Below are positions 48,304-64,000 of a stretch of DNA of 64,000 nt, in pieces. How positions within the stretch are numbered: the first letter of the stretch is position 1; each line of letters opens with the position of its first letter. Origin of the DNA: Kovacikia minuta CCNUW1 (GTDB taxonomy: Bacteria; Cyanobacteriota; Cyanobacteriia; Leptolyngbyales; Leptolyngbyaceae); the NCBI RefSeq assembly GCF_020091585.1, contig NZ_CP083582.1, positions 1-64,000 on the forward strand. The letters run 5' to 3'. A program made the translations under genes and the position numbers. Below the pieces are notes generated by a model. The model was not told the origin of the DNA. It saw only the letters and a list, made by a program, of their open reading frames with translations, and made no database searches.

Positions 48304-50787
48304 ATGACATCGTTTCTTACAGATTCCGCAGACATTACTAGGGTTCATTGCACTTCAAGGTTGAATTTGGAGCAACGTAGTGACTTGGGGCAATTTTTGA
48401 CACCCGCACCCATTGCCCGCCTGATGGCAAAACAATTTGATAGACTATCGGGGCATATCAGTCTTCTCGATGCTGGAGCTGGAGTTGGAGCGTTAACGGC
48501 TGCCGTAATAGAGCGGTTATTGGCAAATCCCAACGAGACTAAAAGCTGCCTCATCACAGCATATGAAATTGAGCCCGTTTTTCTCCCCTCGTTACATCAG
48601 AGTCTTACAGAGTGCTGTGAGGCTTTGGAAAGCAAAGGAATTCAGGCAAATTATTGTTTACGTGAGGAAAACTTTATAGAGGCTTTCAATCAGGTGAGTT
48701 TGCCACTCTTCAATCGGTCATCTCCACCTTTTACCCATGCCATTCTAAATCCCCCATATAAGAAAATTCATAACCAATCCATAGAGAAGAAAATTCTTGC
48801 AAACATCGGTATTGAAACTGTAAATCTTTATAGTGCATTTGTTTGGCTAACCATGTTGCAGCTTTCCGAAAGGGGGGAAATTGTAGCAATTACACCCAGA
48901 AGTTTCTGCAATGGTACTTATTTCCGTCCTTTTCGCAAAGCTTTTTTAGAAAATATGGGACTTAAAAAGATTCATATTTTCGAGAGTCGTTCAACAGCTT
49001 TTTCTGAAGATAATGTATTACAGGAAAATATCATTTTCCATGCTATTAAAACAGAAAGTAAGCCTGAGGAGGTAGAAATAACCAGTAATTCTGAAGCCGA
49101 GTTAGATGAGTTTTCAGAATCACGGTATGTTCCCTACGAAGATGTGATTAGAGCGAATGACTCTGAAAGCTTTATTTATATTATTACAAACTCTCTCAAA
49201 GATTCTTTGAGGGTTCAGATGGATAAGTTTTCATCTACTTTAGATGAAATTGGTCTAAAAGTTTCAACAGGCCCAGTGGTTGATTTCCGCCTCAAATCGG
49301 CGTTAAGAGTTTGCTTAGATGAGCAAAGTGTTCCACTCCTATACCCAGAATCAATTAAGTTAGGGAAAGTCCTATTTCCACCTGACAATCCCCGTAAGGC
49401 GATCGCAATTGAACATACCCAAGAAATAACACAATGGTTAGTTCAACCAGGCTGGTATGTTTTGATAAAGCGATTTTCTTCTAAAGAGGAAAAGCGACGG
49501 ATTGTTGCAGCCGTATGCCCTCCCGTTAATGCCCCAGCACTTGGAATCGAAAATCATCTCAATTACTACCATGCTAGAGGTAAGGGAATGAATCCTGACC
49601 TTGCACGGGGTTTGGCTGTATTTCTCAACTCAACTTTATTTGATAGTTACTTTCGTCAATTCAGTGGGCACACACAAGTTAATGCAACAGACTTGCGTCG
49701 GATTAAATACCCTTGTAAAGACGATTTAATCCGACTAGGAGGGCAAGTTGGTGATTCTCATCTTAATCAGGAGCAAATTGATCAGGTTGTTCATCAAACT
49801 CTGTCCATTATGAGCGAAGCAATCAATGCAATTCAGGCAAGTAAACGAATTGAGGAAGCACTTGCAATTCTCAAAGAGATTTCTACTCCGAGAGAACAAC
49901 AAAATGAAAGATCTGCACTTTGCTTACTCGCATTGGCAGATATGCGACCTGAGCAATCGTGGCAGCAGGCAACAGCGCCAAGACGTGGAATTACAGAGAT
50001 GATGGATTGGTTTCGTGATTATTACGGTAAACAATATGCACCGAATACACGGGAAACCGTTCGACGCCAAACGATGCACCAGTTTGTGCAAATGGGAATG
50101 GTTGTTGAGAATCCTGATCAACCCGATCGACCCATTAATAGCCCTAAGTGGTGTTACCAACTTCATCAACAAGCATTGTCGCTACTTCAAGCCTATGGCT
50201 CTAAGCAGTGGGAAGAGGCGCGTCGAAATTATGCTATTTCAGTCACTAATTTATTGCAGGATAAAAATCGCAATATACCGATGCTTCCTGTGACTTTGCC
50301 TGATGGTCAAGCGATTCAGTTATCATCAGGCGGACAAAATTTATTGATAAAAGACATCTTAGAAAACTTTTGTCCTAGATTCACTCCTGGAGGTTTTGTG
50401 CTTTATGTGGGTGATGCTGGAGATAAGTTTATTATTAATGAGGCTCGGAAATTCCGAGAAATGGGGATTGAATTAGATCCTCACGGAAAAATGCCAGATA
50501 TTGTCATTTACTACGAACAGCAAGATTGGCTTGTCCTGATAGAAGCTGTAACCAGTCATGGGCCAATTAACTTGAAGCGTCAAAATGAGCTTAAGCAGCT
50601 CTTTCAGTCAAGCCATAAGGGTTTAGTGTTTGTGACCGCGTTTCCAAGTCGTAAAGAAATGACCCGCTATCTGGCTGAAATTTCCTGGGAAACTGAAGTC
50701 TGGGTGGCTAACCAACCCGAACACATGATCCATTTTAATGGAGAGAGATTCCTGGGTCCCCATGAAAATTCAGGGAATCGTTCTTAG
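48304..50787 (+). CDS. BsuBI/PstI-type restriction-modification fusion protein
   Basis: 827 aa. The N-terminal two thirds are an N6-adenine methyltransferase: motif I LLDAGAGVGALT (about 54-65), catalytic NPPY at 149-152 (AILNPPYKK), and a target-recognition region to about 480. The C-terminal part (about 535-827) matches BsuBI/PstI-type endonucleases: a helical domain (RRGITEMMDWFRDYYGKQYAPNTRETVRRQTMHQFVQ) and nuclease core YVGDAGDKFIINEARKFREMGIELDPHGKMPDIVIYYE...LIEAVTSHGPI...VFVTAFPSRKEM...WVANQPEHMIHFNGERFLGP. Methylase and nuclease are normally separate genes. The gene is AT-richer than its neighbours, suggesting acquisition. Recognition of CTGCAG is a guess from the family. It overlaps gmhB convergently by 53 bases. 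Confidence 0.9.
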   Translation: MTSFLTDSADITRVHCTSRLNLEQRSDLGQFLTPAPIARLMAKQFDRLSGHISLLDAGAGVGALTAAVIERLLANPNETKSCLITAYEIEPVFLPSLHQSLTECCEALESKGIQANYCLREENFIEAFNQVSLPLFNRSSPPFTHAILNPPYKKIHNQSIEKKILANIGIETVNLYSAFVWLTMLQLSERGEIVAITPRSFCNGTYFRPFRKAFLENMGLKKIHIFESRSTAFSEDNVLQENIIFHAIKTESKPEEVEITSNSEAELDEFSESRYVPYEDVIRANDSESFIYIITNSLKDSLRVQMDKFSSTLDEIGLKVSTGPVVDFRLKSALRVCLDEQSVPLLYPESIKLGKVLFPPDNPRKAIAIEHTQEITQWLVQPGWYVLIKRFSSKEEKRRIVAAVCPPVNAPALGIENHLNYYHARGKGMNPDLARGLAVFLNSTLFDSYFRQFSGHTQVNATDLRRIKYPCKDDLIRLGGQVGDSHLNQEQIDQVVHQTLSIMSEAINAIQASKRIEEALAILKEISTPREQQNERSALCLLALADMRPEQSWQQATAPRRGITEMMDWFRDYYGKQYAPNTRETVRRQTMHQFVQMGMVVENPDQPDRPINSPKWCYQLHQQALSLLQAYGSKQWEEARRNYAISVTNLLQDKNRNIPMLPVTLPDGQAIQLSSGGQNLLIKDILENFCPRFTPGGFVLYVGDAGDKFIINEARKFREMGIELDPHGKMPDIVIYYEQQDWLVLIEAVTSHGPINLKRQNELKQLFQSSHKGLVFVTAFPSRKEMTRYLAEISWETEVWVANQPEHMIHFNGERFLGPHENSGNRS

Positions 50788-63449: not shown

Positions 63450-64000
63450 ATGCGTATCTCCCGATTGCATCAATTGCTCATCAACCCAATTGAAAAAGTA
63501 GCAGCGGGCGATCGGACTGCACCTGTCTCTGCCTCTATGGGCGTTTGGTTCGGTTTAAGTTTAGGATTTGCAGTTTTTTATGGTTTTTTAGGGCTACAAA
63601 AGGCATTTCGGTCTGCATACGTTGTTCAAGACGATGCGAGAGAGTATGTGTTTTGGATGCAGCGGTTTATCGATCCAGCGCTTTTCCCCCAGGATTTAAT
63701 CGCAGATTATTTTCAGTCGATTACCCCATCGGGATACGCGGCTCTTTACCAGTCAATGGCAACGTTGGGCATCCCCCCGCTACTGCTCAGCAAAGTTCTG
63801 CCCCTGGGTTTGGGGCTAGTGGCAACGGTCTATTGTTTTGGGGTTTGCCTTCAGATTTTTCCGGTTCCTGCAGCTGGGTTTGTGTCGTCTTTGCTCCTGA
63901 ACCAGAGTCTCTGGTTTAAGAGTGACCTGGCTTCTGCAACTCCCAAAGCGTTTATCTACCCGCTGTTTCTGGCATTCGTTTATTATTTGCTGCGACGCTC
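63450..64000 (+). CDS. Membrane protein, 3' end beyond window
   Basis: Open frame from ATG 63450 to the end of the window, at least 183 aa (MRISRLHQLLINPIEKVAAGDRTAPVSASMGVWFGLSLGFAVFYGFLGLQKAFRSAYVVQDDAREYVFWMQRFIDPALFPQDLIADYFQSITPSGYAALYQSM...). Hydrophobic segments about 32-50, 120-145, 148-165 and 170-180, separated by an Asp-rich loop (VVQDDAREYVFWMQRFIDPALF). This loop is like the first extracytoplasmic loop of GT-C-type glycosyltransferases, as in the larger membrane protein at 17189-19360, but the family cannot be fixed from the fragment. Confidence 0.75.
   Translation, partial: MRISRLHQLLINPIEKVAAGDRTAPVSASMGVWFGLSLGFAVFYGFLGLQKAFRSAYVVQDDAREYVFWMQRFIDPALFPQDLIADYFQSITPSGYAALYQSMATLGIPPLLLSKVLPLGLGLVATVYCFGVCLQIFPVPAAGFVSSLLLNQSLWFKSDLASATPKAFIYPLFLAFVYYLLRR

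Follow-up and report, generated by a model that had tools for sequence, protein, structure and literature searches.

A probable PstI/BsuBI-type restriction-modification system encoded as a single polypeptide in the cyanobacterium Kovacikia minuta

The window analyzed here is a stretch of 64,000 nucleotides from Kovacikia minuta CCNUW1 (contig NZ_CP083582.1, positions 1 to 64,000). Near its right-hand part lies an open reading frame of 827 codons on the + strand, at 48304-50787, with a single terminal stop, in which a methyltransferase (M) half is followed by an endonuclease (R) half. The features discussed below are as follows.

48304..50787, + strand: fused methyltransferase-endonuclease gene, one open reading frame with translation; 49 distinct full-length fused chains were found, including that of the window
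48304..49818, + strand: methyltransferase half, residues 1-505, with its own predicted C-terminal recognition domain (Eco57I Pfam match; structure model)
48469..48489, + strand: D56-A-G-A-G-V-G62, which we take to be motif I (AdoMet binding; conservation in fused proteins)
48748..48759, + strand: NPPY catalytic motif IV, residues 149-152, the same in all 27 fused proteins of the alignment
49810..49812, + strand: ATG codon 503, at the point where the R gene of two-gene relatives starts (conservation; two-gene geometry)
49843..50256, + strand: helix-turn-helix (HTH) domain of a BsuBI/PstI endonuclease, residues 514-651 (PF17728; SdaI alignment)
50287..50745, + strand: catalytic domain of a BsuBI/PstI endonuclease, residues 662-814 (PF06616; SdaI alignment)
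50494..50550, + strand: putative catalytic-core signature P731-D732 ... E747-A748-V749 (conservation; SdaI alignment)
63868..63873, no strand: CTGCAG site, the sole one in the window, presumed methylated

An earlier note on this DNA had claimed an 827-residue chain with an NPPY methyltransferase signature in its N-terminal half and a BsuBI/PstI endonuclease core in its C-terminal part, and all three points are borne out by the single reading frame and the Pfam matches. The Eco57I methylase family was matched at residues 122-228 with 40.5 bits against a cut-off of 25.3, and D56, G58, G60 and G62 are invariant in the 27 aligned fused proteins. The order of the parts, with motif I before NPPY and a recognition domain after it, is that of a gamma-class N6-adenine methyltransferase. 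Both domains of the BsuBI/PstI endonuclease family exceeded their curated cut-offs of 27 bits by a wide margin, BsuBI_PstI_RE_N (PF17728) with 191.8 bits at residues 514-651 and BsuBI_PstI_RE (PF06616) with 219.2 bits at residues 662-814. The best solved relative is SdaI (2ixs), which aligned with residues 512-821 (E 3.9e-75, 40% identity). P731, D732, E747 and A748 are invariant and V749 is nearly so in the 27 fused proteins, and SdaI has the same letters, which together form the PD...EAV core of the family. By analogy with the PD-(D/E)XK family, these residues would have a catalytic role.

The predicted structure of the whole chain showed a mean pLDDT of 82.8 and a pTM of 0.65. Its M half aligned with whole methylases, namely CamA (residues 4-505), M.TaqI (29-477) and M.BseCI (21-507), the best chains of which gave Z-scores of 24.0-25.4 and rmsd values of 3.1-3.6, and in the model it forms a complete enzyme of the M.TaqI/CamA type that has a recognition domain of its own. 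In the structural match list (VIA), the R half was covered by few entries. Model residues 515-815 matched SdaI with a Z-score of 24.1 and an overall rmsd of 15.5, and on account of this high rmsd the R subdomains appear to be placed differently in the model and in SdaI.

The fused gene is solitary, with a divergent pentapeptide-repeat gene on one side and a convergent HAD phosphatase gene on the other. The longest pentapeptide-repeat frame, on the - strand, overlaps the fused gene over its initial 45 nt (48304-48348); the pentapeptide-repeat gene probably starts at a later codon, which would leave a short promoter region shared by the two genes. A scan for promoters and terminators gave fewer hits than were obtained in shuffled sequences. 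At E <= 0.001, the fused gene was the sole match in its own genome (8.56 Mb, 3 contigs), where no second PstI-type methylase of the same family was found at that threshold; therefore, the methylase half must supply self-protection. We also compared the flanking open reading frames of the 49 fused loci from the scan of GTDB genomes and accepted no conserved partner gene, because the commonest group occurred at only eight of the 49 loci and resembled an antisense frame of the fused gene, and the next occurred at six.

To see how far the fused form extends, we used a sample of 386 genomes from the phylum together with 77 loci from the scan of GTDB genomes. Matches occurred in 57 of the 386 genomes, and in 20 of these, including that of K. 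minuta, one place spanned at least 810 residues; three of the 20 (G153, G376 and G382) carry a stop inside R. A full-length single frame was present at 51 of 107 loci, which represent 49 distinct loci, one of them the window's own. Given that the same unbroken frame is held by other assemblies, at 48 other distinct loci, a sequencing artefact is very unlikely, and an assembly error or frameshift was ruled out. The search for other fused examples, suggested in the earlier note, came out in favor of a genuine fusion, and the notion of a unique oddity was rejected on the strength of the many matches among phylum and GTDB genomes.

In a tree of 94 rows, from which 14 of 108 distinct loci were omitted as holding too little of M or R, the clade of the window comprised 39 rows from several cyanobacterial families with an SH-aLRT support of 100. 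All of these rows are fused, counting as fused one locus (L012) that had been called split in our test and whose frame breaks inside R, past the junction. Further fused chains, nearly all of them in metagenome assemblies, came from records whose titles name Chloroflexi, Planctomycetes, Acidobacteria, Deltaproteobacteria and Proteobacteria. The fused form is therefore natural and widespread, and its spread over a diverged clade indicates that it is old. A single origin of the fusion was not upheld, as parsimony needs six changes, of which at least two are forced by well-supported branches; the deep branches are weak. The family is also already caught, unremarked, by a model of a 2023 defence-protein library: PDLC03359 of PADLOC-DB ('MTase_II', 840 positions) spans residues 7-820 with 884 bits and matched 27 of 27 aligned fused proteins, and the entry is labelled only 'Type II methyltransferase', with the nuclease half unmentioned. 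We found no description of a natural fused BsuBI/PstI enzyme in the titles and abstract starts of the listed open-licence PMC papers, and REBASE may list some.

Relatives encoded by two genes occur in plasmids and in other bacteria, in the same M-then-R order as in the fused chain. In a plasmid collection, 170 records had a match, and we judged the 49 with at least 80% coverage (the other 121 lay below). In every one of these 49, the match was divided into two pieces; two annotated genes cover the pieces in 48 records, and in the remaining one they are unannotated. The earlier statement that PstI-like systems are normally two genes thus holds for these plasmid records and fails for this family in cyanobacteria. 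In six plasmid stretches that were read closely, the stop codon of M and the start codon of R lie in an overlap of 4 nt, and the same arrangement was found at 12 of the 25 two-gene loci tested, three of 28 (L084, L085 and L086) having been omitted as lacking a clean R piece. With this geometry, a small frame change at the overlap would suffice for fusion.

These relationships bear on the class of the enzyme. It shares with the type IIP systems BsuBI, PstI and SdaI full-length endonuclease domains and a methylase of the gamma adenine family, and differs from them in being one chain instead of two genes. Orthodox type IIP systems have R and M on separate polypeptides, whereas here one reading frame encodes both; type IIC comprises proteins that hold an endonuclease and a methyltransferase together, as this sequence does. 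The earlier note had expected behavior like that of a type IIG enzyme. According to the part of PMC4081073 that concerns type IIG, both activities are harnessed in that class to one specificity module, and most combined restriction-modification enzymes carry the nuclease at the N-terminus. The enzymes of the BpuSI, MmeI and TspGWI family (type IIG/IIC) likewise combine a nuclease with a gamma methylase in one polypeptide, but they have a shared recognition module and mostly an N-terminal nuclease, and they cut outside the site (PMC4081073, in part). Stimulation of cleavage by AdoMet is a further mark of type IIG. In the present chain, R lies C-terminal, contrary to the type IIG majority arrangement (which is not absolute), and homology and the model point to two separate DNA readers. 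A type IIG-like enzyme, in which cleavage would be governed by the reader of the methylase and fall outside the site, could draw on the gamma-methylase fold common to the M half and BpuSI/MmeI; nevertheless, the C-terminal nuclease has a complete HTH of its own and aligned nearly end to end with SdaI, so that we consider such an enzyme very improbable. Instead, we read the chain as the two enzymes of an orthodox type IIP system linked in tandem, an arrangement that on its sequence and model would be type IIC by definition and not IIG.

Fusions within type IIP have precedents. The methylase of Eco29kI is a cytosine methylase. In RM.Eco29kI, an engineered type IIC enzyme, the two proteins of a type IIP system were likewise combined into one chain, and this fusion differs from the present enzyme in being engineered, in its R-then-M order and in its GIY-YIG nuclease, where the chain described here is natural, M-then-R, of the PD-(D/E)XK type and directed to adenine; in the available part of the same report, BsuBI is given as one of the head-to-tail systems from which natural fusions might arise (PMC3039593). 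Fusions of the CR.NsoJS138I type are likewise natural, within type IIP and in some cases cyanobacterial, but they join a regulator to a nuclease, not a methylase to a nuclease (PMC3850674, in part).

We also examined whether the two halves have stayed intact. Of the 70 distinct loci in the fused lineages, 49 have both halves intact; R alone is broken at 16, M alone at three, and both halves at two. Some of the broken loci are marginal, since L101 (R broken) lies near a contig end, L068 (M broken) lies at a contig end, and L069 (R broken) fails the threshold by its last residues only. More frequent breakage of R than of M is expected of a working, dangerous nuclease, and breaks of the two halves are unequally visible, because a break in the M half of a fused gene usually abolishes both activities. 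The 16 loci with M open and R broken show that the methylase alone is often kept, and this would also suit the alternative that the chain is in effect a methylase with an inactive or silent nuclease half, whose methyl mark is regulatory. Against this, the R half of the window is open and carries the P-D...E-A-V letters as in SdaI, and neither half is interrupted in 49 distinct chains. We thus regard a silent nuclease as quite unlikely for the gene of the window. The genes with M open and R broken (L008, L011, L045, L046, L049, L051, L054, L074 and others) mark a possible route from a restriction-modification system to a lone methylase.

The ATG at codon 503 raises the question of a second product. 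It could be that the locus yields the fused chain together with a free endonuclease, started at codon 503, that does most of the cutting. All 38 close fused relatives (the gene of the window included) have an ATG here, as do 23 of 26 distant ones, and this is the point where the two-gene relatives begin R, often with the 4-nt overlap described above. In the distant set, a Shine-Dalgarno-like motif precedes 10 of 24 ATGs at this point against 31 of 347 other in-frame ATGs, an excess with p=6e-5 in a test that disregards shared ancestry. However, no such motif was found before the ATG in any of the 38 members of the clade of the window, which leaves a Shine-Dalgarno-led internal start unsupported there. 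Moreover, Met503 lies within a predicted helix, several other methionines of the protein are equally conserved, and three fused genes (L015, L023 and L062) have no ATG at this point. A C protein-endonuclease fusion, as far as the pertinent part of PMC3850674 goes, gave only the full-length product under the conditions tested. Taken together, a two-product locus seems rather unlikely in K. minuta. A free endonuclease deserves serious consideration in the distant fused genes, and less so in the gene of the window. An in-frame ATG with a Shine-Dalgarno-like motif at the old R start was seen in L061, L058, L067, L070 and other distant fused genes, which suggests internal initiation of a free endonuclease in these genes.

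Next, we analyzed the occurrence of CTGCAG. The earlier note had pointed to one such site at 63868-63873, which is indeed present and is the only one in the window. The whole genome contains 94. In a 464-kb sample of it, CTGCAG was observed twice where a fourth-order Markov model predicts 137 occurrences, whereas CTGCAA, CTGCAT and CTGCAC stood at 1.30-1.44 of expectation. Among related palindromes, ATGCAT (0.82) and TTGCAA (0.87) are nearly unavoided, and GTGCAC stood at 0.34. In 200-kb samples of other intact carriers, the observed and expected counts of CTGCAG were 0 and 49 (G251), 0 and 37 (G308), 2 and 49 (G352) and 1 and 33 (G255), with weaker avoidance in G312 (9 against 32) and G099 (17 against 73). 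However, the two non-carriers sampled over 200 kb also avoid the site (G002, 5 against 33 expected; G011, 3 against 104), and avoidance was accordingly rejected as proof of specificity. The genome of K. minuta avoids other palindromes as strongly (GGCGCC, 0 against 74 expected; GTCGAC, 0 against 52). We also noted GGATCC at 1 against 53 expected and GAGCTC at 1 against 45, with CGATCG over-represented (1.48).

Comparison of relatives within one family (f7) gave a median of 3.5 CTGCAG per Mb in intact carriers (n=11), 7.3 in genomes with broken R (n=4), 4.8 in those with remnants (n=12) and 13.7 in genomes with no match (n=15). With kinship ignored, one-sided tests gave p=0.0004 for intact carriers against no-match genomes and p=0.036 for intact carriers against broken and remnant genomes combined, and the control palindrome GACGTC gave p=0.25. 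Elsewhere the pattern is less clear: G099, with an intact fused gene in a distant clade, has 801 sites genome-wide, G312 and G357 (186 and 208) have no fewer than genomes of their genus that lack a full copy (186-246), and G255 (15) has no fewer than its congeners (6 and 18). In another family (f31), three small genomes (G079, G212 and G269) hold 10, 5 and 28 sites against several hundred in many relatives; G212 has a distant endonuclease-only match.

Members of the BsuBI/PstI endonuclease family are expected to cleave CTGCA/G or a site that includes it. SdaI, the solved relative, recognizes the 8-bp site CCTGCAGG and belongs to the 8-bp group. It is therefore conceivable that the fused system works on a palindrome other than CTGCAG: the SdaI site CCTGCAGG, a different NTGCAN, or a site read with relaxed specificity. 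The avoidance of CTGCAG may have been left by other systems. PstI and SbfI, although related, have sites of different length, as noted in part of PMC4081073. Nevertheless, CTGCAG is avoided whatever flanks it, CCTGCAGG accounts for only about 11 of the 137 expected occurrences, and ATGCAT and TTGCAA are nearly unavoided and GTGCAC is at 0.34. We consider another site doubtful, and the least unlikely of the alternatives. PstI-like specificity is plausible in itself, and CTGCAG is the likely site of the fused enzyme: the avoidance fits this sequence and argues against an 8-bp site, and it is no proof. The fused chain also matched phage proteins with 44.7% identity over 96%, in two pieces, which we infer to be EcoGIII. 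According to the portion of PMC6602927 on EcoGIII, this PstI-like system, which E. coli phages encode in two genes, methylates and cleaves CTGCAG. No methylome of a carrier strain was found in the titles and abstract starts of the listed open-licence PMC papers.

From these results, we propose, with a probability of roughly 0.7, that a single polypeptide from this locus constitutes a complete restriction-modification system of the PstI/BsuBI type, probably in working order and probably specific for CTGCAG. Both activities, this specificity and control by assembly are inferred, as follows. The N-terminal half would methylate the adenine of the site, probably giving CTGCm6AG, and the C-terminal half would cut the same palindrome when it is unmodified, each half reading DNA through its own domain. 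Since the gene is solitary and no second match to it was found in its genome, self-protection would have to come from the chain itself. On the hemimethylated DNA left by replication, the methylase half may work as a monomer, whereas a double-strand cut would require that two nuclease halves come together at a site; marking would therefore be favored over cutting when the enzyme is scarce. SdaI is a monomer in solution, and this weakens the case for such a dimer step in the fused enzyme. Control by assembly was proposed for type IIC enzymes in the relevant part of a review (PMC12707154). The engineered Eco29kI fusion kept both activities, with weaker restriction, and in vitro it showed preferential cutting with little methylation (PMC3039593, in part). 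The latter behavior is the opposite of what self-protection needs, and it counts against our explanation.

More broadly, the fused chains may form a natural class of type IIP enzymes, of long standing, in which one polypeptide carries two readers for one palindrome; the host genomes would shed the site, and marking would be timed by the assembly of dimers and not by gene order. We put this view forward tentatively and hold it to be less probable than its negation. If it is true, then specificity is locked twice, and the host sheds the site as it does with two-gene systems. In the excerpted survey of PMC4687349, site avoidance accompanied about half of orthodox type II cases and 0 of 107 type IIC/G cases. 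It would then be the shared reader, and not the single chain, that abolishes site avoidance in the latter. Avoidance of CTGCAG is nonetheless indecisive for the class of the present enzyme, because the two sampled non-carriers share it. The fused form would also be stable on chromosomes and poor at entering new cells, which would explain why all 49 near-full plasmid relatives are in two pieces. A natural fused form had been proposed from the engineered Eco29kI fusion, and here it is natural, clade-wide and present in several phyla. It offers a test case for two questions: how one polypeptide can methylate DNA ahead of cleavage without the timing given by separate genes, and whether the way specificity is encoded governs site avoidance. 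The fused enzyme is also, in cyanobacterial genetics, a likely barrier to DNA with unmethylated CTGCAG.

Finally, we looked at the sites that the K. minuta genome does contain. Among the first 25 of the 94 chromosomal CTGCAG sites, 11 sit in near-identical multi-copy repeats, and many sites therefore look like recent arrivals. Pairs of CTGCAG 77 bp apart recur in identical copies at about 1.378, 1.876 and 2.227 Mb of the chromosome (L219, L224 and L228), as would be expected of a multi-copy mobile element that brought in the avoided site.
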